From Hyphomicrobiales bacterium (lineage in GTDB: Bacteria > Pseudomonadota > Alphaproteobacteria > Rhizobiales > Beijerinckiaceae), in assembly GCA_019075905.1 (NCBI GenBank), contig JAGXAM010000002.1:124001-188000 (forward strand): a stretch of DNA of 64,000 nucleotides, given 5' to 3'. The translations under genes were made by a program, and so were the position numbers. Positions 7,761 through 24,909 of this stretch are shown one piece after another; the stretch's first letter is position 1, and every line of letters starts with the position of its first letter. Under the pieces are notes generated by a model. The model worked only from the letters and a program-made list of their open reading frames with translations, was not told the origin of the DNA and made no database searches.

Positions 7761-7796
7761 GAAAAAGCGTGGGCAGCCATTTGGGCTGTCCACGCT
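7761..7796 (-). terminator. Intrinsic terminator after the cytochrome-porin operon
   Basis: A 13-bp stem (arms 7766-7778 and 7784-7796, one G-T pair) with a 5-base loop is followed, reading leftward, by TTTT. It lies 46 bp past the stop at 7842 and should end the HiPIP/cytochrome-porin transcript. Confidence 0.75.
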
Positions 7797-7841: not shown

Positions 7842-9221
7842 TCAGAAAGCGATCCAGCTATAGAGGAAGGTGACATCATTGCCCTTGGCGCTGTGGCCAT
7901 TGCCGTCAAAGTTGGTGGTGCCGCCATAGACCTGCAGGAAGTGCGTATAGCTGATACCGATGCGGGCATTGGCCCACGGCCACAATTTCGGTCCACCATG
8001 GCTGAAGGGCAGATAGGCCGCATCAAGGATCATGCCGCGTCCGTTGGGCGAATTGACCAGCGAATTGCCGCTGTAGAGGCCCGCGTCTGAACTGCCTGCC
8101 ACGTCAAAATATTCGGCCGAGAGGCTGTAGGTGTGGTCATACACCCATGAGCCGACGAGTTTGAAGCTGCGCAGCGTATTGTTCAGATTGGACGAGCCAC
8201 CCTGACCGAATGTCGAGGCCAGATGCTGGCGCTCGAAAATATCCGAGGCACGCACCGTGAACGAGTTCTTGTCGCCATTATACTGATACTGGGTATCGAA
8301 GCCGATATCGGTGTAATGGTCGGAACCAAAGGTCGAAACACGCATGGGGTGGATGCGGGCATCCATGCCGAAGGTGCCGATTTCCCATGAATTGGGGCCC
8401 CAATCCGGCTCGAAAGCAATTCGCCAATAGGGCGAAACACCCTTCATACCGTCTGACGTTGCCGAATCCGGCTCGCCAAGCAGGCGCTCCTGGCCCTTGC
8501 TGAGCATCTGGTAACCAGAGAGCTCGAAATAGGCCATATCATTCCAGAAGGTATAGAAGCCCACACTCGCAACCTTGCCTGACAGGCCCCCCTCGATCAG
8601 GGTGCCAGGAGGTGCAAATTGCGGGGCCAGCGTCGGCGCGGCTTCAGGGAAACCCCAGGCCGGCGTCGTGGTCCAGACGTCCTGAACCGTCGGCGAGTTG
8701 TTGAAGTCGAAGCCGTAGAGCAGATCCTGCCCGAAAAGCTTGGTATTATCGGCATAACGAATATCGGTATTGTCGAGCAGGGTACGACCGGTCGCGCGGT
8801 CATAGGTCGCCTGCACGAAGGCGCCGAGCTTGCCAAAAATCTGGCCGCCGTAGAACAGGCTGGCCTGTTGCAGAATGATGTTGTCATTGGTCTTTGTATG
8901 CGGAGCCGGAGGCGCATCCTGCGCAACACCCGTATGGGTGAAGGTGGGCATCAGCATCATCGCCACATGCGGCGCCGAGGCGGACTTGTCAGTCCCGAAC
9001 AGCGTGTAGCCATTCAGCTTGAAGCGGCGACCAAAGGGCGTCAGTTCTGGAAAGGCCGTATGACAGGCAGCGCAAGGCTGGCCGGTCTGGCGCGCGAAGC
9101 TCGGCAGTGCCGCAGCCGGCATTGACGAACTGACCAGCGCAGCGGCCGCAAGCGCAAAGGTGCCGATCCACACCTTCCGCAGCGCAGCCAGACGCTGGAT
9201 TTTGTCTCTAAAAAGCCCCAT
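7842..9221 (-). CDS. Fused monohaem cytochrome c-porin, Cyc2-like (candidate outer-membrane Fe(II)/extracellular electron oxidase)
   Basis: Predicted outer-membrane protein with one N-terminal c-type haem and a C-terminal beta-barrel. Seen: signal peptide ending near residue 38 (SMPAAA), then mature PSFARQTGQPCAACH, haem motif CAACH at 50-54, followed by PELTPFGRRFKLNGY; the rest is barrel-like, with alternating aromatic strands and Gly/Asn/Asp turns, and the protein ends in Phe as many BAM substrates do. This N-terminal pattern and the 459-residue length match the Cyc2 family, which oxidises Fe(II) in Acidithiobacillus and neutrophilic iron oxidisers; related proteins also occur where iron oxidation is unproven. 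ATG at 9221 has GGAGGGG 4-5 bases upstream; the longer frame to 9323 is rejected. Last gene of an operon behind two HiPIP genes, which supports an electron-transfer role. Direction and donor are inference. Confidence 0.8.
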   Translation of the reverse strand: MGLFRDKIQRLAALRKVWIGTFALAAAALVSSSMPAAALPSFARQTGQPCAACHTAFPELTPFGRRFKLNGYTLFGTDKSASAPHVAMMLMPTFTHTGVAQDAPPAPHTKTNDNIILQQASLFYGGQIFGKLGAFVQATYDRATGRTLLDNTDIRYADNTKLFGQDLLYGFDFNNSPTVQDVWTTTPAWGFPEAAPTLAPQFAPPGTLIEGGLSGKVASVGFYTFWNDMAYFELSGYQMLSKGQERLLGEPDSATSDGMKGVSPYWRIAFEPDWGPNSWEIGTFGMDARIHPMRVSTFGSDHYTDIGFDTQYQYNGDKNSFTVRASDIFERQHLASTFGQGGSSNLNNTLRSFKLVGSWVYDHTYSLSAEYFDVAGSSDAGLYSGNSLVNSPNGRGMILDAAYLPFSHGGPKLWPWANARIGISYTHFLQVYGGTTNFDGNGHSAKGNDVTFLYSWIAF

Positions 9222-9279
9222 TCTACCCCTCCAAAATATGCATGTGCCACAGGGCGATTCAGCCCTGCCCGCATACCCG

Positions 9280-9552
9280 TCAATTTGTTCCAGGCCTGTC
9301 ATTCCAAAGCTCGCACCAGCCACCCGGGCTCACCGTGCCGGCAACGATCTTGCAGGACGACGGTGGCGCGAAGAGCTTGCAGTTTGAGCAGGAATGGCCA
9401 TCCTTCGCTGAAGTCTGGTACTTGACCGAGACTTGCGAAACTTGCGCCGCCCTGGCCCCAAGGCCAGCCAGCGCCGCACCCGGAACTGCTATTGCAGCCG
9501 TCATCAAGAGCTTGCGACGGCTGATGTTGTTGATATCAAGAATCCTGGTCAT
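9280..9552 (-). CDS. High-potential iron-sulfur protein (HiPIP) 1, Tat-exported
   Basis: Small periplasmic one-electron carrier with a [4Fe-4S] cluster. Seen: a twin-arginine signal (ISRRKLLMTAAIAV) from about residue 9, cleavage near ARAA, then cluster ligands CSNC, Cys after 8 residues, and Cys after 12 more (C-x2-C-x8-C-x12-C). As far as I recall this spacing equals that of the Iro-type HiPIP of Acidithiobacillus. 90 residues from ATG 9552, chosen because GGAGG lies 5 bases before it; an ATG 12 bases upstream overlaps that ribosome site. It sits between a paralogue and the cytochrome-porin gene (58-bp gap), in the same direction. Confidence 0.9.
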   Translation of the reverse strand: MTRILDINNISRRKLLMTAAIAVPGAALAGLGARAAQVSQVSVKYQTSAKDGHSCSNCKLFAPPSSCKIVAGTVSPGGWCELWNDRPGTN

Positions 9553-9635
9553 GAATGCCTCCATGCATTCAGTCCCCCGACGCCATCGGGCGTTGCAAGG
9601 CCGCTCATGGCCCGCCCTGCAACGCTGAAAACGGC

Positions 9636-9896
9636 TCAGGCCTTAGGCGACCACAGCATGCACCAGCCATTCGGGCTGATCGAGCCGGAAACCTGCTTGC
9701 AAGACCCGGGGGCCTCGAACAGCTTGCAGGCCTTGCAGTCATGCCCGTCTTTCGGCTTGGCCTGATACATCACCGAACCCTGGGCGACCTTGGCTTCAGC
9801 GGAGAGCGATGCGAGGGCGGTGACCGGCACAGCCACGGCCGCGGTCAGCAACAATTTGCGACGGCTGATGTTATTGATATTCAAAATTCTGGTCAT
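9636..9896 (-). CDS. High-potential iron-sulfur protein (HiPIP) 2, Tat-exported
   Basis: Paralogue of the neighbouring HiPIP and first gene of the operon. Seen: nearly identical signal region (MTRILNINNISRRKLLLTA) with the twin arginines, then CKAC, Cys after 8, Cys after 12, and the NGWCMLW C-terminal core. 86 residues. ATG at 9896 has AGGAG 7 bases upstream. Mature parts differ in charge and surface residues from HiPIP 1, so the two may face different partners. A FixK/FNR-type box lies 76.5 bp upstream (centre to start), so transcription is probably raised at low oxygen. Confidence 0.9.
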   Translation of the reverse strand: MTRILNINNISRRKLLLTAAVAVPVTALASLSAEAKVAQGSVMYQAKPKDGHDCKACKLFEAPGSCKQVSGSISPNGWCMLWSPKA

Positions 9897-9936: not shown

Positions 9937-9979
9937 ATAATCGCAAATATGCCCCTGGATTGTCATTGATCGAAGTCAA
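9937..9979 (-). promoter_or_regulatory. FixK/FNR-type box and promoter of the HiPIP/cytochrome-porin operon
   Basis: TTGATCGAAGTCAA at 9966-9979 matches TTGAT-N4-ATCAA at 9 of 10 positions. A GATTAT -10-like hexamer (9937-9942, leftward) puts the start near 9930, about 41.5 bp from the box centre, the class II geometry. Centre-to-ATG distance is 76.5 bp, identical to the fixN promoter. Confidence 0.7.
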
Positions 9980-10787: not shown

Positions 10788-11417
10788 TTACTGCAACAGC
10801 CGTTCGAGCGTGGCGCGCGTCGGAATTTCGATACCGCGAAGGCCATGCAGGCGAATAAGGCCGCGTTGCTGCAGGCTCGACAGGCAGCGCGAGATGGTCT
10901 CGATTTTCATGCCGACGAAAGCAGCAAAATCGGCACGGCTCATCGGCAGCGAAAAAATCCGTGTTGAACCCATGCGCCGCTGCATATCGAGAAGAAAGCT
11001 TGCCACGCGCTCATCGGAGCTGCGCTGGCTCAGCAGCAAGACATGCTTCTGGGCTTCGACCATTTGTTGCAGGGCTGCCTGATGCATTTCTTCCTTGCTG
11101 ATGCCGTCGGCACAAATCAGCAGGGTTTCTTCAATGGCTTCGGCGTAAATCGCCAGCGAGGCGCTGCGCATGCACCAGACATAATCGCCCTTGCCTTGAA
11201 ACGAGACGATCTGGCGGCGCCCGTCAGCCAGATCCTGCACCAGCCGCACCCAACCCGACAGGATCTTGAACACCTGCGGTGCATCGGTGGGCAGGCAGAT
11301 CACCTGCTCGCGCTCGAAGCGCAGCGTCGTGTTGGCGTGGCGGAGAGGGGCCCGCAGAAAGGGATAGGATGAGCGCGCCCGCGGGTCGACGTTTCCCTGG
11401 CTTGAAAGATAAGACAT
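10788..11417 (-). CDS. fixK: Crp/Fnr-family regulator, FixK-like
   Basis: Transcription factor of the CRP/FNR superfamily expected to bind TTGAT-N4-ATCAA boxes. Seen: N-terminal cyclic-nucleotide-like beta-roll (about residues 25-110), a long dimer helix, and a C-terminal winged helix with SRADFAAFVGMKIETISRCL; the recognition helix has E-x-x-S-R, the residues that read TTGAT half-sites. There is no N-terminal four-cysteine cluster, so it is FixK-like and not an FNR oxygen sensor. ATG at 11417 is used; an upstream GTG at 11435 is possible. It lies downstream of fixL, fixJ and a receiver-like gene, the order known for fixK2 loci of Bradyrhizobium. Probable targets in this window: fixN, hemN, the HiPIP operon and its own unit. 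Confidence 0.85.
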   Translation of the reverse strand: MSYLSSQGNVDPRARSSYPFLRAPLRHANTTLRFEREQVICLPTDAPQVFKILSGWVRLVQDLADGRRQIVSFQGKGDYVWCMRSASLAIYAEAIEETLLICADGISKEEMHQAALQQMVEAQKHVLLLSQRSSDERVASFLLDMQRRMGSTRIFSLPMSRADFAAFVGMKIETISRCLSSLQQRGLIRLHGLRGIEIPTRATLERLLQ

Positions 11418-11484
11418 GACCGCTTCATTCCCCACAAAGGCCGCAACGAGGGCAAAATAAATGCCGCCGCCGTTGCTGCCTATT

Positions 11485-11519: not shown

Positions 11520-11900
11520 TTACGGTTCAGCTTTGCAGGCGTGCACCGCGTCCAGAAGGCTGCCGCCCAGCAGCGGCATGGTCAGCCGGGCGCTGGCGTG
11601 CCGCAGCAGGCAGCATGTCAATTGCGGCGGCGACGGATCGTCAAGAATGGCGATCAACGGCACCGCCAGTCCGCGCTGCATGGCGCAGCAGGGGCAAAGG
11701 CGATCCAGCGCGCAAGCCACCGGCAAATGCGCCACGAGGCAGAGGGCTGCGGCATCGTGCGGCGCCGCGCAGGCCGCCTCCACAGTCGAAAAAGCCGCAA
11801 CCTTGTAGCCATCGGTTTCGAGCATGAACCGCAGCGAGGAGGCGAGCTCATCCTGCCCGCAAGCCAGTTGCACCAGTGATTCGCTGGATCGAGCAGCCAT
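11520..11900 (-). CDS. Degenerate receiver-domain protein
   Basis: About 126 residues with the shape of a single CheY-like receiver: first strand SLVQLACGQDE, helix SSLRFMLETDGYKVAAFST, third strand CLVAHLPV, later strand VPLIAILDD and a C-terminal LTMPLLGGSLLDAV that mirrors the K-P-F..L segment. The acidic pair is reduced to QDE, the phosphoacceptor Asp position reads LVAHL with no Asp, and the conserved Lys is replaced, so phosphorylation looks impossible. It is rich in Cys, including CPCC near residue 70. ATG at 11900 has GGAAAGA upstream; the frame to 12002 has no support. A single-domain receiver gene sits in the same place between fixJ and fixK2 in Bradyrhizobium, as I recall, so it is likely an accessory to that circuit. 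Confidence 0.7.
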   Translation of the reverse strand: MAARSSESLVQLACGQDELASSLRFMLETDGYKVAAFSTVEAACAAPHDAAALCLVAHLPVACALDRLCPCCAMQRGLAVPLIAILDDPSPPQLTCCLLRHASARLTMPLLGGSLLDAVHACKAEP

Positions 11901-11947
11901 TGGTCTTTCCGCAAATGTCCCGGTTCGGCATAGATACGAAGGCGGGC

Positions 11948-11989
11948 AATTTAGGCGGAGCGCTGCTGAGGGCGAATGACTTAAGTCAT
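11948..11989 (-). promoter_or_regulatory. FNR/FixK-like palindrome and promoter before the receiver-fixK pair
   Basis: ATGACTTAAGTCAT (11976-11989) is a perfect 14-bp palindrome with the TGA-N6-TCA core of FNR-family sites. A TAAATT -10-like hexamer (11948-11953) places the start near 11941, 41.5 bp from the centre. This suggests FixK-type autoregulation of the unit, separate from fixLJ. Confidence 0.5.
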
Positions 11990-12017
11990 GCCCGGCACGC
12001 ATTATTGTCCCGGCGCT

Positions 12018-12617
12018 TCAGCCAATGCAGGCGCGTACCAGTTCGGGCAGGCTCTTGACCGCCATTTTCATCATGATGCTGGCACGATGGGTCTCCACCG
12101 TCCGCGGGCTGATGCCGAGCGACAGGGCAATGGTCTTGTTGGAATGGCCGTCGAGCAGCCCGTCGAGAACCTCGTTCTCGCGCTGGGTCAGCCGTTCGCG
12201 CCGCGCCGCATCCGGGCGCTCGGTCACGGGCTGCTCGCCTTTGCTGCCGGCCTTGCTGATCGCCTCGGCGATGGCGGTGCGCAGCGTCGCATCGTCAAAC
12301 GGCTTTTCGATGAAATCGCTGGCCCCTGCCTTCATGGCCGCCACGGCCAGCCGCACGTCGCCGTGGCCGGTCATCATGATCGCCGGAAATTCCGCATCAA
12401 GTTCACGCAGGTGCCGGATCAGCTCCAGCCCATCCATGCCGGGCATGCGCAGGTCCGCGACGAGGCAACCGGCCTGCGTGCCGGGCCAGGTCGCCAGAAA
12501 CGCCTCCGCGCTGGCATAGACCCGCACGGCCCAGCCCGAGGTCGTCAGGGCAAAGGCCAGCGCGTGACGGACATCGGCATCATCATCCACCAGATGAATG
12601 ACGGGATCATGGATCAT
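12018..12617 (-). CDS. fixJ: Response regulator FixJ
   Basis: Transcriptional activator phosphorylated by FixL at low oxygen. Seen: receiver domain with acidic cluster LVDDDADV, phosphoacceptor in VADLRMPGMDG, T in MMTGHGDV, K in IEKPF; then a LuxR-type helix-turn-helix LTQRENEVLDGLLDGHSNKTIALSLGISPRTVETHR. About 199 residues, normal for FixJ. ATG at 12617 is chosen because CAGGG lies 7 bases before it; it overlaps the end of fixL by 11 bp, indicating coupled translation. An ATG at 12641 is the alternative. Confidence 0.93.
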   Translation of the reverse strand: MIHDPVIHLVDDDADVRHALAFALTTSGWAVRVYASAEAFLATWPGTQAGCLVADLRMPGMDGLELIRHLRELDAEFPAIMMTGHGDVRLAVAAMKAGASDFIEKPFDDATLRTAIAEAISKAGSKGEQPVTERPDAARRERLTQRENEVLDGLLDGHSNKTIALSLGISPRTVETHRASIMMKMAVKSLPELVRACIG

Positions 12618-14112
12618 GACGCGCCCTGGCTGCGGTTTCATCGCCCTTGGAGGGGAGCGGCAGTGTGAAGCTGAATTTCGTGCCCTGCGGCGTCAGCGGC
12701 GTGAAGAAAATCCGCCCGCCATGGGCCTCGACAATAGTGCGCGAAATCGATAGGCCGACGCCGAGCCCACCGGGTTTGGTGGTAAAAAACGACTGGAACA
12801 AATGGTCCGAGGCTTCAGGATCGAGACCCGGGCCGGTATCGCTGACGCTGATGATCACCCGGTCGGGTGAAAGCAATTGCGCCGCGACATTCATCTGCTT
12901 CGGGCTGGTCACCTCCATCGCGTCCATGGCATTGCGCACCAAATTCAGCAGCACCTGCTGGATTTGAATGGCGTTAGCGTGCACCGGCGGCAAATCGGCA
13001 GCAATATCAAAGCTCACACGCACACTTTGCGAGGCCGCGCCAACCAGCGCAAGCGCGCAGGCTTCCTCGATCATCGAGGCAACTTCGACATTCTGGCGCC
13101 CGACATCGCCACGCGCTGCCACCCCGCGCATGTTGCGGATGATCTCGCCAAGCCGCAGCGTCTGCCGGGTGGCCCGCGCCAGCGCGTCCGCCGCCCGCGG
13201 CAGGGCCTCGCTGTCGCCGTCAGCGAGCAGCTTCTGTGCGCCCTGCAGATAATTGGCTATGGCCGACAGCGGCTGGTTGATCTCATGGGCAAGGGTTGAA
13301 GCCATTTCCCCGAGCGTGGTGATGCGTGACATATGAATGAGCTCGGATTGCAACTCCTGCAACCTTTTGCGAACTTCCTGACGCTCGGTAATGTCGCGCA
13401 CGAAGCCAATGAAAAAATGCCTTGAGCCGGTGCGCACCTCTCCGACCGTCAGCTCCATCGGAAATGTCGAAAGATCAGCCCGCTGGCCGACGACCACACG
13501 GCCAATGCCGATGATACGCCGCTCGCCGGTCGCGAGGTAAGTTTCAAGATAGCGGTCGTGCTGCGTGCGGTAGGGCTCCGGCATCAGCCTGGAAATGTTT
13601 TGTCCCATGATCTCGGCGCGCTTGAAACCAAAAAGCCGCTCTGCTGCCGGGCTGAATTCCTGAATGACCCCGACCGTGTCGATTTCGATCATGGCGTCGG
13701 GCACGGTCGCCAGCACGGAATTGATATGCGCCTCGCGCTCCTCGATTCCCTGATTTTGGCTTGAGGCCGGGCCGGGCGAGAAACACAGCATGGCCTCGCC
13801 GCCAGCCAGCTGCGCAAGGCGCACCGGCACATCCTGCACCTTGTCGCCTTCAGCGCGGCATGTGTGCATCGACGGCCCGCTCGCAGCGTCGCCCGCCACC
13901 AGCCGCACGAGCGAGGGCGTGGCATTTGTACCGTCCGGCTGCAGCCATGCGAGGTCCTGGCCAAGCGCCTCGCTGGCAGCAGCACCAAACAATCTTTCTG
14001 CCGCCCGGTTGAAGGCACTGATTTTATGTTCGGCATTCACGCCGACAAATGCCTCCGAGGCCAGGTCAAGGCAGGCTGACAGCCTGTCAGTGGAGGAGTT
14101 TTGCCCGGACAT
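12607..14112 (-). CDS. fixL: Oxygen-sensing histidine kinase FixL
   Basis: Cytosolic haem-based oxygen sensor kinase controlling FixJ. Seen: two PAS domains (about 15-115 and 125-245) and no membrane segment; the second has the haem signature YRTQHDRYLETY with proximal His185 and IIGIGR with Arg205, which corresponds to the distal Arg220 of Bradyrhizobium FixL. The position matching Arg206 there is Thr191 here. Kinase core: H-box AHEINQPLSAIANY with His276, N-box LLNLVRNAMDAM, G1 SDTGPGLD, F-box FFTTKPGGLGVGLSIS. 501 residues, normal length. ATG at 14112. Confidence 0.95.
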   Translation of the reverse strand: MSGQNSSTDRLSACLDLASEAFVGVNAEHKISAFNRAAERLFGAAASEALGQDLAWLQPDGTNATPSLVRLVAGDAASGPSMHTCRAEGDKVQDVPVRLAQLAGGEAMLCFSPGPASSQNQGIEEREAHINSVLATVPDAMIEIDTVGVIQEFSPAAERLFGFKRAEIMGQNISRLMPEPYRTQHDRYLETYLATGERRIIGIGRVVVGQRADLSTFPMELTVGEVRTGSRHFFIGFVRDITERQEVRKRLQELQSELIHMSRITTLGEMASTLAHEINQPLSAIANYLQGAQKLLADGDSEALPRAADALARATRQTLRLGEIIRNMRGVAARGDVGRQNVEVASMIEEACALALVGAASQSVRVSFDIAADLPPVHANAIQIQQVLLNLVRNAMDAMEVTSPKQMNVAAQLLSPDRVIISVSDTGPGLDPEASDHLFQSFFTTKPGGLGVGLSISRTIVEAHGGRIFFTPLTPQGTKFSFTLPLPSKGDETAARARHDP

Positions 14113-19788: not shown

Positions 19789-20679
19789 TTATTGCCCGCC
19801 ACCCAGTGTGTGGACGAACACAGCCAGAGCCTTGATCGTCGTATTATCGAGACGCCCGCCCCAATAGGGCATGACACCGCCATGACCATTGGTGACGCCC
19901 GCCTCTATGGTCTTGAGCGAAGAGCCGTAAAGCCAGACCTTGGTGGTGAGATTGGCCGAGCCGATCTTGATGTTGCCCTTGGCATCCTTGCCGTGGCAGG
20001 GGGCGCAATTATCCGCGAAAATCTTGGCCCCGGCGCCAAGGTCGGCACCCGCCTCGGTCTTGAGGCCGGACAGCGAGCGCACGTAATTGGCAACCTGCTC
20101 GATTTGCGGCGGGGTCAGGATCCCGGCCTTGCCGAAATCCGGCATGGAACCCTGGTGGCCCTTGGGATCGCCCGAGCGTGCACCATGCAGGATGGTCTGA
20201 TAGATCTGGTCAAGCTTGCCGCCCCACAGCCAGCGGTTGGCATTGAGATTGGGATAGCCCGGCGAGCCCTGGCCGCCCGCGCCATGGCAAGGGGCGCAAT
20301 TATTGGCGAAAGCCGCGGCACCTGCGGCGCGCGCAAAGGCCAGCAGTTCCGGCTGCTGCTCGATCTGGTCGAGCGGCGTGCTCGCCAGCTTCTGCATCAG
20401 GGCGCCACGTGACTTTTGCAGGTCCGTCAGGCTCTGCACTACGGCCGAGCGCGAGTGCCAGCCCAGAAATCCGGTCGTCGCGCCATTGATCAGCGGGATC
20501 GAAGGATAGGCAAAGCAATAGCCCACGGCCCAGACGATCGTGATATAAAACGTCCACAGCCACCAGCGCGGCAGTGGGTTGTTCAATTCCTTGATACCGT
20601 CCCAGGAGTGGCCGGTTGTTGAAACGCCTGTATAGCTGTCGACCTCATGGTCGGCATGAGGCGTGTTGTTCGTCGACAT
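19789..20679 (-). CDS. fixP: cbb3 cytochrome oxidase subunit III (dihaem cytochrome c) FixP/CcoP
   Basis: Periplasm-facing dihaem subunit feeding electrons to FixN. Seen: N-terminal CcoP domain (STTGHSWDGIKELNNPLPRWW), one membrane helix, and two CAPCH haem sites around residues 120 and 210 with downstream Met ligands (GSMPDF; GVMPYW). 296 residues. ATG at 20679 lies 6 bp after fixQ with a GGAG/GAGGG stretch upstream. Confidence 0.95.
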   Translation of the reverse strand: MSTNNTPHADHEVDSYTGVSTTGHSWDGIKELNNPLPRWWLWTFYITIVWAVGYCFAYPSIPLINGATTGFLGWHSRSAVVQSLTDLQKSRGALMQKLASTPLDQIEQQPELLAFARAAGAAAFANNCAPCHGAGGQGSPGYPNLNANRWLWGGKLDQIYQTILHGARSGDPKGHQGSMPDFGKAGILTPPQIEQVANYVRSLSGLKTEAGADLGAGAKIFADNCAPCHGKDAKGNIKIGSANLTTKVWLYGSSLKTIEAGVTNGHGGVMPYWGGRLDNTTIKALAVFVHTLGGGQ

Positions 20680-20685
20680 GGGCCC

Positions 20686-20847
20686 TCACTCCTCATCCAG
20701 CGGCGAACGTCCAATCGCCTCATATTCAGCTTTTCGCGACGGCCACATCGCAAACGCGACGGCAACAGTGAACACCAAAATGGCGTAAATCATGCCGACA
20801 GTCCGGGCGATACTGCCTATATGCTCAAGGGTTGCGTTTGGAGTCAT
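20686..20847 (-). CDS. fixQ: cbb3 cytochrome oxidase small subunit FixQ/CcoQ
   Basis: 53-residue single-helix subunit stabilising the FixN-FixP interaction. Seen by translation: MTPNATLEHIGSIARTV, helix MIYAILVFTVAVAFAMWPS, and tail RKAEYEAIGRSPLDEE, the CcoQ form. It lies between fixO (9 bp) and fixP (6 bp). Confidence 0.93.
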   Translation of the reverse strand: MTPNATLEHIGSIARTVGMIYAILVFTVAVAFAMWPSRKAEYEAIGRSPLDEE

Positions 20848-20856
20848 GGCACGATC

Positions 20857-21591
20857 TCATCGAATGTTGGCTTTGTCGTCATAAGTCTTGAAATTCACTT
20901 CGGTGCCGAGCATCTGCAGATAGGCGATGAGCGCATCTGCCTCGGTCACGTGGCGGGGAAGGCCCGCGTAATCACGTGATTTCGCGCCCGGATAACGCTT
21001 GGCGAGATCAGCAGCACCGTCGCTGTTGTCGGTATCCTGGGTGACGATGTCTTTCTTGGCGTCATCGATATCGGCCTGCGTATAGGGTGTCCCGAGCAGC
21101 CGCTGCACCTTCATCTTGGCGACAATATCGCTGGTGTCGAGGTCGGTGTGGAACAGGAAGCCAAACCGCGGCATGATCGATTCCGGCACCACAGAACGCG
21201 GATCCTTCAGATGCTGGCGGTGCCAGTCATCAGAATATTTGCCGCCAATGCGGGCCAGATCCGGGCCAATGCGCTTGGAGCCCCACTGGAACGGATGATC
21301 ATACATGCTCTCGGCGGCCAGCGAATAATGGCCGTAACGCTCGACTTCGTCACGCAGCGGCCGGATCATCTGCGAATGACACAGGTAGCAGCCCTCGCGC
21401 ACGTAAATGTCGCGGCCCTCGAGTTCCAGCGGTGTGTAAGGCCGGATCGAGCCAACCTTTTCAATGGTGCCCTTTACATAAAACAGCGGCACGATTTCGA
21501 CCAGCCCGCCAATGGCCACAGCCAGAACCGCAGCAACCGCGAGGAGGATGACATTCTTTTCCAGAATATAGTGTTTGGACATCAAGGACAT
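20857..21591 (-). CDS. fixO: cbb3 cytochrome oxidase subunit II (monohaem) FixO/CcoO
   Basis: Membrane-anchored monohaem cytochrome c subunit. Seen: N-terminal helix ([24 protein letters not shown]), [16 protein letters not shown] haem site near residue 70, [22 protein letters not shown], and a distal Met in SIMPRFGFL. 244 residues. ATG at 21591 overlaps the fixN end by no more than intergenic spacing (12 bp apart). Confidence 0.95.
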
Positions 21592-21603
21592 GTGTTGAAT
21601 TCC

Positions 21604-23262
21604 TCACTCAGCGGGGACGAGTGCCGGAGCACCCGGACGACCGGCTTGGGTTAAGCTGAGTTCATCCACCGTGATCGTCATCCACAAATTGTAGACCATG
21701 ATCAGAACGCCGGTGAGGAACATGGCACCGCCAAGCGCGCGCAGGACATAGAGCGGATGCACCGCCTGAACCGTATCCACGAAGGAATATTGCAGAAAGC
21801 CCAGCTTGTTGTAGGAGCGCCACATCAGGCCTTCCATGATACCCGCGACCCACATCGACGAGATGTAAAGCACAATGCCCATGGTCGAGATCCAGAAGTG
21901 CCAGTTAACCAGCTTGAGCGAGTAGAGCTCGCGCCGGTTCCACAGCCAGGGCACCATGCAGTAGATCGCCCCGAAGGAAATATAGGCGACCCAGCCAAGA
22001 CTGCCCGAATGCACATGGCCAATGACCCAGTCGGTATAATGGGTGAGGGCATTGACTTCCTTGATGGCCATGACCGGCCCCTCGAAAGTCGCCATGCCAT
22101 AGAAGGCCAGCGCCACGACCATCATGCGCAGCACCGGATCGGTGCGCAGCTTGTCCCAGGCCCCTGACAGCGTCATCAGGCCGTTGATCATGCCACCCCA
22201 CGACGGCATCCACAGCACGATCGAGAACACCATGCCGAGAGTCTGGACCCAGTCCGGCAAGGCCGTATAGATCAGATGATGCGGGCCGGCCCAGATATAG
22301 ATGAAGATCAGCGCCCAGAAATGCACGATCGACAGCCGGTAGGAATAAATCGGCCGGTTGGCGCGTTTCGGCACGAAATAATACATCATCGCCAGGAACG
22401 GCACCGTCAGGAAGAAGGCCACGGCATTGTGGCCATACCACCACTCGAACATGGCATCCTGCACGCCGCTCCACACGATGTAGGATTTCGACGAAAACAG
22501 CGAGATCGGCACGGTCGGGCTGTTAAACAAGTGAAGAACGGCGATGGTCAGGATAAACGACAGGTAGAACCAGTTGGCCACATAGATATGCGGCTCGGCA
22601 CGACGCATCAGCGTGCCGACAAACACGACGAGATAGGTGACCCAGACCACCGTCAGCAGCAATTTCTGGTACCATTCCGGCTCGGCATATTCCTTGGAAG
22701 CGGTAATCCCGAGCGGATAGCCGGAGATGGCCAGCACCAGAAACAGATTATAGCCGATGGCAACGAACCACGGCGCCAGATAGCCGGCAAGCCGCGCCCG
22801 TGACGTGCGCTGCACGACATAAAACGACGTTCCGATCAGGATATTGCCACCAAAACCGAAGATCACCGAATTGGTATGCGAGGGCCGCAGGCGCCCGAAA
22901 TTGACATATTGCACGAAATTGAGGTGCGGATAGGCGAGTTCCAGCGCGATATAAAGGCCGACCGTCATGCCGATCAGCCCCCAGACGATGGACGCCACGG
23001 TCAGGAACCTTACTGGCGACATATAATAATTTGGCTTGCCGTCGATCTCGCGCGGCGGCAGTTGCGCCGGGCGATTATAGTAATTCCGGATCACCAGAAA
23101 CGCACACACGGCCGCAGTCCAGGCCATGATGCTGGTCTGGAACGCATAGGCCGGCGTCCACGCCTTGGCAGACACAAAGGTTGCAAAAACCGCGAATGCC
23201 GCCAGCAGCACGAAGCCGATGAGCTCGCCGGTTGTTATTTTCTTCGTGACACTCTGCTGCAT
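21604..23262 (-). CDS. fixN: cbb3 cytochrome oxidase catalytic subunit FixN/CcoN
   Basis: Catalytic haem-copper subunit of the high-affinity C-type oxidase. Seen: about 12 membrane segments, low-spin haem His in LRPSHTNSV, CuB/active-site region [28 protein letters not shown], and the haem ligands in [18 protein letters not shown]. About 552 residues. ATG at 23262 ([13 protein letters not shown]) is chosen because GGAGAAGG lies 8 bases before it; the frame upstream to 23358 runs through the promoter. First gene of the fixNOQPGHIS run. Confidence 0.96.
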
Positions 23263-23303
23263 TTTGCCCACCTTCTCCGAACCCCAGCGGAAATATCCGC
23301 CCG

Positions 23304-23345
23304 GTTTTAGAATGCGGGTAAAGTGTCGTCTTTGATCAAGATCAA
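23304..23345 (-). promoter_or_regulatory. FixK/FNR box and promoter of fixNOQPGHIS
   Basis: TTGATCAAGATCAA at 23332-23345 is a perfect TTGAT-N4-ATCAA box. Its centre is 76.5 bp from the fixN ATG, and TAAAAC (23304-23309, leftward) is correctly placed for a -10 with a class II start near 23297. Confidence 0.85.
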
Positions 23346-23480
23346 GCGGGCTCGCCATCCTCGCCGCGAAATTGCCGCATCCTTGTCGCAGCCGGGCCGC
23401 GCAAGCCTGTCATTTCAGCCGATTGGTTGATGAGCGCCAAGCCTTGCGACAGTTTGACACCTGTGCCGTTGCGACCGCTT

Positions 23481-23522
23481 TTGATCCGCGTCAAAGCCAT
23501 TTGCCGGGCCCGGGGGTTAAAT
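23481..23522 (+). promoter_or_regulatory. FixK/FNR box and promoter of hemN
   Basis: TTGATCCGCGTCAA at 23481-23494 matches the box at 9 of 10 positions. TTAAAT at 23517-23522 is a good -10. Class II spacing gives a start at about 23529, one base before the ATG, so the message may be leaderless. Confidence 0.75.
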
Positions 23523-23529
23523 TCTCCCC

Positions 23530-24909
23530 ATGTCCCATGATGCATCCACCAATATTCCTGCGCTGATTGCCCGTTATGACGGCAATATTCCGCGCTATAC
23601 CAGCTACCCGACCGCGCCGAACTTCAGCGCGAAAGTTGGCGCGGACGTCTATGCGCAATGGCTGCAGGCGCTGCCGCTGGACCAGCCATTGTCGCTTTAC
23701 CTGCATGTGCCGTTCTGCGACCGGCTTTGCTATTATTGCGGATGCAACACTGGCGTCGTGCGCCTCGCCTCATCCCGGCTCGCCTATGCGAGGGTGCTGA
23801 TGCGCGAGATCGCCATGGTCGCCGCCGCCTTGCCGGGCCGCGCCCGCATAGCCCAGATTCATTGGGGCGGCGGCACGCCGACCAGCCTTTCGGCCGAATC
23901 CCTGGTAGAGATCATGGCGACCATCCGCCAGCATTTTGATCTTGAGGCCGATGCCGAAATCGCCATCGAGATTGATCCGGTCAATCTGCCGGAAGATCGC
24001 CTGCCGGCCCTCAAGGCCATGGGCATCACCCGTGCCAGCCTTGGTGTTCAGGACTTCAACATCAATGTCCAGCAGGCCATCGGCCGCGCCCAGAGCTTCG
24101 AGGAAACCCGCAGCTGCCTCAACAAGCTGCGCGCCATCGGCATTGCCTCGATCAATATCGACCTGATGTACGGCCTGCCGCATCAGACGGTGGAGAGCGT
24201 TTGTGCCACGGCCCGTTCCGTGCTGGAACTGGCCCCCGAGCGCATCGCCGTCTTTGGCTATGCCCATGTGCCGTGGATGAAAAAGCACCAGCTGCTGATC
24301 CCCCGCAGTGCCTTGCCCGACGCTTTGGGGCGCTTTGCCCAGCAGGAGGCGATCAGGGAAACGCTGCGCCGTGAAGGCGGCTATATTGCCGTCGGGCTCG
24401 ACCATTTCGCCTTGCCCGGCGATGCCCTGACCATGGCCGCCGAGGCCGGCGCGCTGCATCGTAATTTCCAGGGCTATACGACCGATGCCGCCCCGGCCCT
24501 GATCGGCATGGGCGCCAGCGCCATCGGCAGCCTGCACCAGGGATATGCCCAGAATGCAACGCGCGTGCCCGATTATACCGCAGCTATCGAGGCAGACCAT
24601 TTTGCTGTCGCTCGCGGCATTGCGCTCAGCGCCGACGACCGGTTGCGCCGGTCCGTGATCGAACAGGTCATGTGCGGCGACGAGGTCGATCTCGAAGCCA
24701 GTTCCCGGCATTATCTCGGCCGTGCCGATGCGCTTGATGGCGTCTTGCCGACGCTGCAGGCGCTGGAAGCCGATGGCTTCGTCGCGCATCACGGCAGCAT
24801 CTGGCAAATCACCGAGCAAGGTCGCCCGTTCATGCGTCAGGTGGCGGCATGTTTTGATGCCTATCTGGGCCAGGCGGCAACCGCCGAACGCTTCGCGCGG
24901 GCCGTCTAG
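23530..24909 (+). CDS. hemN: Oxygen-independent coproporphyrinogen III oxidase HemN
   Basis: Radical SAM enzyme converting coproporphyrinogen III to protoporphyrinogen IX without oxygen. Seen: PRYTSYPTAPNF, the radical SAM cluster site VPFCDRLCYYCGCNTG near residue 65, GGGTPT, NIDLMYGLPHQT, and a HemN C-terminal domain. 459 residues. ATG at 23530 is the only suitable start, yet no ribosome site stands at normal distance; the GGGGG at 23512-23516 is too far. The promoter geometry predicts a leaderless mRNA. Divergent from fixN, both under FixK-type boxes, so haem supply and oxidase synthesis are co-induced. Confidence 0.95.
   Translation: MSHDASTNIPALIARYDGNIPRYTSYPTAPNFSAKVGADVYAQWLQALPLDQPLSLYLHVPFCDRLCYYCGCNTGVVRLASSRLAYARVLMREIAMVAAALPGRARIAQIHWGGGTPTSLSAESLVEIMATIRQHFDLEADAEIAIEIDPVNLPEDRLPALKAMGITRASLGVQDFNINVQQAIGRAQSFEETRSCLNKLRAIGIASINIDLMYGLPHQTVESVCATARSVLELAPERIAVFGYAHVPWMKKHQLLIPRSALPDALGRFAQQEAIRETLRREGGYIAVGLDHFALPGDALTMAAEAGALHRNFQGYTTDAAPALIGMGASAIGSLHQGYAQNATRVPDYTAAIEADHFAVARGIALSADDRLRRSVIEQVMCGDEVDLEASSRHYLGRADALDGVLPTLQALEADGFVAHHGSIWQITEQGRPFMRQVAACFDAYLGQAATAERFARAV

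Follow-up and report, generated by a model that had tools for sequence, protein, structure and literature searches.

What does a high-potential iron-sulphur protein (HiPIP) do when its gene lies beside that of Cyc2, the single-haem cytochrome-porin of the outer membrane? Its role there is called unknown in a passage on Ferrovum (PMC4725956) and unresolved in one on the acidithiobacilli (PMC10715153). The question arises again for a three-gene operon in a 64,000-nucleotide stretch of DNA from a Hyphomicrobiales bacterium of the Beijerinckiaceae (assembly GCA_019075905.1, contig JAGXAM010000002.1, positions 124,001 to 188,000), referred to here, at its full length, as the window. Transcribed from the minus strand, the operon encodes HiPIP-A, HiPIP-B and a 459-residue Cyc2-type protein, in that order. 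We find that the pairing of HiPIP and Cyc2 recurs in relatives and is no local accident, and a recurrent operon of this kind makes the role of the HiPIP directly testable. As to function, we favour, with considerable room for doubt, a low-oxygen Fe(II) oxidation module in which electrons would pass from Cyc2 to a PioC-type HiPIP and on to an oxidase, under the control of FixL, FixJ and FixK.

Cyc2 homologues of Hyphomicrobiales have already been noted (PMC10654088). In the open-access text that was searched, the combination of Cyc2 and Beijerinckiaceae was found only in a community survey, and neither a HiPIP-Cyc2 operon nor a FixK/FNR box before cyc2 was found; other papers or supplements may hold one. 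In the portions covered of two papers on cyc2, FNR appears only among the references (PMC7236192, PMC5506826).

The operon and the identity of its proteins

The genes and the element that follows them are these (aa, amino acids; Tat, twin-arginine translocation):

7842 to 9221, minus strand: predicted Cyc2-family monohaem outer-membrane cytochrome-porin, 459 aa (motif, profile, plasmid homologues)
9280 to 9564, minus strand: HiPIP-B, Tat-type, PioC-like, 94 aa, or 90 aa from the second ATG (Pfam HIPIP, four cysteines, twin arginine)
9636 to 9896, minus strand: HiPIP-A, Tat-type, PioC-like, 86 aa, first gene of the operon (phmmer and profile matches to PioC)
7766 to 7796, no strand assigned: hairpin 3' of Cyc2 with a 13-bp stem, candidate terminator (called by the scan on the plus strand only)

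The gap between HiPIP-A and HiPIP-B is about 71-83 bp, depending on the start of HiPIP-B, and that between HiPIP-B and Cyc2 is 58 bp. An earlier note on this DNA had described two Tat-type HiPIPs upstream of a 459-residue protein ending in Phe, and its coordinates and features hold. It had also proposed a shared terminator: the 13-bp hairpin does lie 3' of the operon, but the scan called it on the plus strand only, and the TTTT that follows it on the minus strand was read by eye; a terminator shared by the whole operon is plausible at this place. The operon contains HiPIP, HiPIP and Cyc2 only, so that the absence of PioA and PioB, likewise claimed before, stands at the level of the operon, which is where it was checked.

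The 459-aa protein (7842-9221) reads ALPSFARQTGQPCAACHTAFPEL, ends in Phe and has two cysteines, those of one CxxCH; its signal peptide was assigned by eye. Keffer et al. 2021, in the portion used here, define Cyc2 by AxPxFAR[QK][TY] ahead of CxxCH and PxL behind it, together with one haem and a fused porin, and apply a length screen of 365 aa (PMC8406198). Just ahead of its CxxCH the window protein carries ALPSFARQTGQPCAACH, which fits the first motif; PxL follows soon after (CAACHTAFPEL), the haem motif is single, and 459 aa lies above the screen. In the N-terminal motif, the single CxxCH, PxL and length, the protein resembles Cyc2 of Acidithiobacillus, Mariprofundus and Ferrovum. It has no match in Pfam or NCBIfam, no Pfam match was found in any of 19 aligned members of the family, and the Cyc2 search of the PDB found no porin match.

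Comparison with other genomes places the protein more closely. Its own genome holds one Cyc2 match. Nine plasmid records carry homologues at 32-47% identity across 88-91% of the query, namely those of Methylocystis, Caballeronia (2), Paraburkholderia, Acidiphilium (2), an Acidithiobacillus ferrooxidans record, Polymorphobacter and Ideonella, and some of these homologues are annotated 'cytochrome C'. In the phylum sample, Cyc2 matches at 1e-10 occur in 86 of 398 genomes; most of the weaker ones belong to a family of small genomes (f81), many of which encode Cyc2-like proteins, and which is taken to be the Zetaproteobacteria (cluster 1). A profile of the 19-row Cyc2 alignment matches that of ten f81 proteins at 99.4% probability (E 1.6e-21) over 313 columns, extending far into the porin part. 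In a 70-row tree, built by a quick method and without references of clusters 2 and 3, the f81 clade is separate at 100 support, and the window protein falls among Cyc2 homologues in the other group, which also holds the Acidiphilium, Caballeronia and Methylocystis copies; the chromosomal Cyc2 of A. ferrooxidans and Cyt572 of Leptospirillum lie outside both the tree and the direct comparison. By motif, profile and tree, the protein is assigned to the Cyc2 family, which bears out the Cyc2-type reading of the earlier note. That note's view of the genome as Rhizobiales-type also agrees with the tree, in which the Methylocystis plasmid Cyc2 nests among the Cyc2s of the window's own family.

Structural prediction added little to this picture: an AlphaFold2 model of Cyc2 built with two sequences only reached a predicted local distance difference test (pLDDT) score of 25.8, and for the porin part, in which about 16 beta strands are expected, a crude strand score based on hydrophobic alternation gave 7 peaks, with 13 of 200 shuffles scoring as high, which is not significant. 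No f81-type Cyc2 was found on plasmids, where an f81 probe matched Methylocystis alone, and weakly; no relative was found on viral contigs; and rusticyanin (TIGR03095) had no match in the window genome or in 299 genomes, the controls likewise being without a match.

Among the plasmid copies, that of Acidiphilium multivorum pACMV3 (L038, 5890-7258) is annotated as two hypothetical proteins and is apparently an interrupted gene, unlike the A. cryptum plasmid copy, which is one frame. The gene order near Cyc2 in the plasmid record of A. ferrooxidans YQ-N3 (L041) equals that of Acidiphilium cryptum pACRY03, which suggests plasmid exchange or a mixed culture.

Both HiPIPs have an SRR twin-arginine signal and the spacing C-x2-C-x8-C-x12-C. 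HiPIP-B scores 25.9 bits against Pfam HIPIP, over the cut-off of 22, and HiPIP-A, at 20.8 bits, falls just under it. A phmmer comparison of HiPIP-A with PioC (6xyv) gives 9.5e-8, and a 23-row HiPIP profile matches 6xyv at 1.8e-13, the best of the 12 solved HiPIP sequences listed; among solved structures the window HiPIPs are, as judged from these matches, nearest to PioC, which shuttles electrons from PioAB. The earlier note had linked them to Iro of Acidithiobacillus, and here a correction is needed. They resemble Iro as Tat-type HiPIPs of a kind discussed for iron oxidation, and the Iro model NF041615 is the top NCBIfam match for both, but their scores of 56.9 and 60.3 bits lie below its equivalog cut-off of 100, and we rejected Iro as a name for them. 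Searched with Pfam HIPIP, the genome yields the two operon HiPIPs and one weak 14-bit match inside a GTP cyclohydrolase I gene. AlphaFold2 gave HiPIP-A, from four sequences only, a pLDDT of 39.4. HiPIP-like matches also occur on six Rhizobium plasmid records (H11-H16), at places where the gene is unlisted or the record is without annotation.

Another close counterpart is the PioABC system of Rhodopseudomonas palustris TIE-1. Both have a PioC-like HiPIP with the same cysteine spacing and a FixK box in the promoter. Unlike PioABC, the window operon lacks the decahaem PioA and a separate PioB and has a one-gene Cyc2 in their place. If the proposed function is right, the three-gene kit joins half of Pio with Cyc2.

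Pairing of HiPIP and Cyc2 across genomes

The earlier note had asked for a survey of HiPIP-Cyc2 pairs. Among 248 genomes of the family, Cyc2 is present at E <= 0.001 in 36 and a HiPIP profile match at the same threshold in 47. A HiPIP lies within 2.5 kb of Cyc2 at 23 of the 38 Cyc2 places, in 21 of the 36 Cyc2-bearing genomes; for this count a gene whose match was split into pieces was taken as one, short partial second places in two genomes (G139, G146) were left out, and the 38 include one place (G195) that is merely a 69-residue fragment with a stop. By genome, 26 have both, 21 HiPIP only, 10 Cyc2 only and 191 neither (Fisher p ~1e-14, relatedness uncorrected). Because relatedness is uncorrected and the HiPIP profile was itself built from Cyc2 neighbours, the adjacency count is the safer measure. 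The layout varies among genomes, the two genes lying on the same strand or divergently. The metagenome-assembled genome LL6.bin45 has the same operon, with a Cyc2 that is 92% identical. In the order sample Cyc2 is rare, with matches at 1e-10 in 8 of 397 genomes, three of them from the window's own family.

Little else is common to these loci. In 20 of them (the window and 19 wider stretches, 17-25 kb each), no gene families other than Cyc2 and HiPIP are present in more than half; by blastp clusters, HiPIP is found in 15 of 20, and a mixed group of response regulators in 8 of 20. Eighteen of the 20 had been chosen as HiPIP-Cyc2 loci and two were without HiPIP (L107, whose stretch ends before the HiPIPs, was left out), and the result therefore shows how few other neighbours are common, not the rate of pairing.

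The partner of Cyc2 varies, and in many relatives c-type cytochromes occupy the position of the HiPIP, a point that the earlier note did not make. The part of PMC10879576 used here places a c4-type cytochrome gene immediately downstream of cyc2 in Acidithiobacillus and Ferrovum, whereas the window has two HiPIPs upstream and no cytochrome gene adjacent to Cyc2. A search with PF13442 alone returned four matches in the genome; they fall at three sites and belong to CcoP, encoded in the window, and to two proteins next to pyrroloquinoline quinone (PQQ) dehydrogenases. Across the 70 Cyc2 loci, 21 have a HiPIP, 26 a cytochrome c without HiPIP, and 18 neither that could be seen (12 of these being f81), with 5 undecided; the labels come from motif scans and match tables and not from curated models, and loci at contig ends may be mislabelled. 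Some of the 21 HiPIP loci also carry a cytochrome, examples being L016 and the Caballeronia plasmid. One part of the tree, 35 rows in size, takes in 20 of the 21 Cyc2s that have a HiPIP partner and also 11 cytochrome loci; the exception is Caballeronia. The tree requires at least 8 changes between the HiPIP and cytochrome states, which indicates that the partners of Cyc2 have switched repeatedly.

Probable low-oxygen regulation

A second line of evidence comes from the promoter, where the earlier note had recorded neither the FixK box nor the adjacent FixL, FixJ and FixK genes:

9966 to 9979, no strand assigned: FixK/FNR-type box upstream of HiPIP-A, TTGACTTCGATCAA in operon direction, exact TTGAN6TCAA
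9937 to 9942, minus strand: candidate -10 element GATTAT (consensus scan)

The site TTGATCGAAGTCAA at 9966-9979 matches exactly the FixK box definition used (PMC3050613), and GATTAT lies about 33 bp from the box centre, counted by eye, near the spacing of class II FNR/FixK promoters. Exact boxes number three in the window, where 0.55 would be expected, and 1 of 100 shuffles reached three; the whole genome has 37 sites against 8 for a reversed control.

The box is not confined to this operon. An exact box lies in the 700 bp before the approximate Cyc2 start at 22 of the 70 loci, for which 11 permuted palindromes give 0-2; the control regions of the same loci yield 3 boxes in the 700 bp after Cyc2 (permuted 0-1) and 2 in coding sequence (permuted 0-3). 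The loci are related, so the 22 boxes are not independent events, although there is wide variation in the six bases at their centre. Not counted among the 22 are the window locus and L003, whose boxes lie further out, before HiPIP-A. Within 1.5 kb upstream, a box is found at 15 of 21 loci with a HiPIP, 7 of 26 with a cytochrome and 3 of the remaining 23. These data lead us to a broader proposal, which we advance tentatively and hold with less confidence than the account of the operon itself, that a PioC-type HiPIP may replace a c-type cytochrome as acceptor for Cyc2 in this family and that many cyc2 genes of the Pseudomonadota may be under FNR/FixK-type oxygen regulators. The box offers a handle on when Cyc2 genes switch on.

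Two further sets of loci bear on the box. Exact FNR/FixK-type boxes occur shortly before Cyc2 in L059 (2980), L060 (1212), L061 (2949), L064 (1306), L065 (2925) and L066 (3029), which come from several other families of the phylum and are mostly cytochrome-paired. In L108 (G002:C17), the HiPIP-Cyc2 locus has as its neighbour a Crp/Fnr-type gene (828-1388) that is 32% identical to the window FixK; an exact box, at 718, separates the two.

The window also encodes candidate regulators and an oxidase:

10788 to 11435, minus strand: FixK-type Crp/Fnr regulator (top NCBIfam FixK, 111 bits, equivalog cut-off 300; Pfam HTH_Crp_2, cNMP_binding)
12018 to 12641, minus strand: FixJ-type response regulator (top NCBIfam FixJ, 251.1 bits, cut-off 255)
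12607 to 14112, minus strand: FixL-type sensor kinase (top NCBIfam FixL, 480.7 bits, cut-off 850; PAS, HisKA, HATPase_c)
19789 to 23358, minus strand: cbb3 oxidase genes (ccoN frame 21604-23358, ccoO 20857-21591, ccoP 19789-20679)
23332 to 23345 and 23481 to 23494, no strand assigned: two FixK boxes between ccoN and the divergent gene at 23530 (exact-box scan)

The cbb3 oxidase, which the earlier note had rightly named, is identified by TIGR00780 (699.6 bits) and TIGR00781 (338.3 bits), both over cut-off, and by FixP_N and cytochrome domains. The called ccoN frame has the box at 23332-23345 inside its opening codons, and the true start is probably further in. Between FixJ and FixK, on the minus strand, lies a FixT-like receiver-type protein (11520-12002) with a cysteine-rich stretch, which matches NCBIfam FixT at 25 bits (E ~1e-5), far under the cut-off of 150; in Caulobacter a four-cysteine Fe-S motif is described as unique to FixT, in the part of PMC7078487 used here. 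That the operon regularly lies beside fix and cco genes was considered and rejected: in a check that saw mostly ~10 kb on each side of the locus, only the closest relative (L107) among 20 other loci shares the synteny. In Rhodopseudomonas palustris, pioABC is reported in the cited text to be under direct FixK control (PMC3050613).

Proposed electron route, host and alternative readings

The host genome, of 2.88 Mb, gives the setting. It has two COX1-family oxidases, the window cbb3 and one at C5:10856. A run of genes encodes the large subunit of RuBisCO (791 bits, cut-off 438) and the small one, phosphoribulokinase (503, cut-off 362), aldolase, ribulose-phosphate epimerase and fructose bisphosphatase, together with a CbbX-like AAA protein and a divergent LysR gene. 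Two PQQ dehydrogenases of the methanol/ethanol type are present, one beside a methanol-related cytochrome, and the host is probably a methylotroph resembling those of the Beijerinckiaceae or Methylocystaceae.

In the reading we favour, the single haem of Cyc2 in the outer membrane would take electrons from dissolved Fe(II) or a comparable one-electron donor, and the periplasmic PioC-type HiPIPs would accept them from Cyc2, a position occupied by Cyc1-type cytochromes at many other Cyc2 loci. From the HiPIPs the electrons would go on to a terminal oxidase, with cbb3 the likeliest, and so to O2, some possibly being driven uphill for CO2 fixation by RuBisCO, and falling oxygen would turn the operon on through FixL, FixJ and FixK. 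Fe(II) as the donor, the direction of flow, the transfers from Cyc2 to HiPIP and from HiPIP to oxidase, and the binding of FixK are what we infer. The reported potentials of 208 mV for Cyc2 of PV-1 (PMC8406198) and 450 mV for PioC (PMC10879576), which are values of relatives and not of the window proteins, would make the step from Cyc2 to HiPIP downhill. If this reading is true, a methylotrophic, RuBisCO-bearing alphaproteobacterium could use a three-gene kit to oxidize Fe(II) when oxygen is low, and likely iron oxidation would extend to a group with methylotrophic members.

Several observations weigh against this reading. First of all, 15 of the 38 Cyc2 places have no HiPIP within 2.5 kb, some of them at contig ends and others with c-type cytochromes, and a Methylocystis plasmid, outside the 38, has three cytochromes near Cyc2 and neither a HiPIP nor a box nearby. 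Second, a HiPIP-profile match occurs without Cyc2 in 21 of 248 genomes (E <= 0.001), a score of at least 90 bits being reached in 5. Third, 6 of the 21 HiPIP-paired loci lack an exact box within 1.5 kb upstream, and the fix-gene synteny is common to only one close relative among 20 loci. Fourth, a PioC-like potential of 450 mV would lie above the usual potentials of cbb3 haems, and another oxidase or a shifted potential may therefore be needed. Finally, the host also looks methylotrophic.

The main rival turns the flow around: at low oxygen the HiPIPs would feed respiratory electrons to Cyc2, which would reduce Fe(III) or another outside acceptor. FixK-type control suits an outlet under oxygen limitation equally well as micro-oxic oxidation, and the cited texts discuss Cyc2, Cyc2B and Hip for Fe(III) reduction in Acidithiobacillus (PMC8790237) and Cyc2 of Acetobacteraceae for the same reaction (PMC10715153). 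The nearby cbb3 oxidase and the genomic RuBisCO operon, on the other hand, favour uptake, and a PioC-like HiPIP at 450 mV would be ill suited to drive the reduction of Fe(III) if the pH is neutral; we regard reverse flow as unlikely.

Next in order, and likewise unlikely in our estimate, is iron handling outside energy metabolism, in which Fe(II) would be oxidized against toxicity or reactive oxygen, or another small donor would be used, with no support of growth. The patchy presence of Cyc2 (36 of 248 family genomes) suits an accessory trait, and the two PQQ methanol/ethanol-family dehydrogenases are other likely energy sources; but an oxidase that serves detoxification should have little need of a carrier of its own, and a PioC-type carrier with fix-type low-oxygen control forms a respiratory pattern.

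That the genes are neighbours and not partners, with Cyc2 feeding an unlinked c-type cytochrome and the HiPIPs serving another chain, is very improbable: several relatives do pair Cyc2 with c4-like cytochromes, the HiPIP being distant or missing, and HiPIP matches occur without Cyc2 too, but in this genome PF13442 (PF00034 was not searched genome-wide) matches only CcoP and the two proteins beside PQQ dehydrogenases, and diverged genera repeatedly show the two genes side by side, be it on one strand or divergently, while few other neighbours are conserved.

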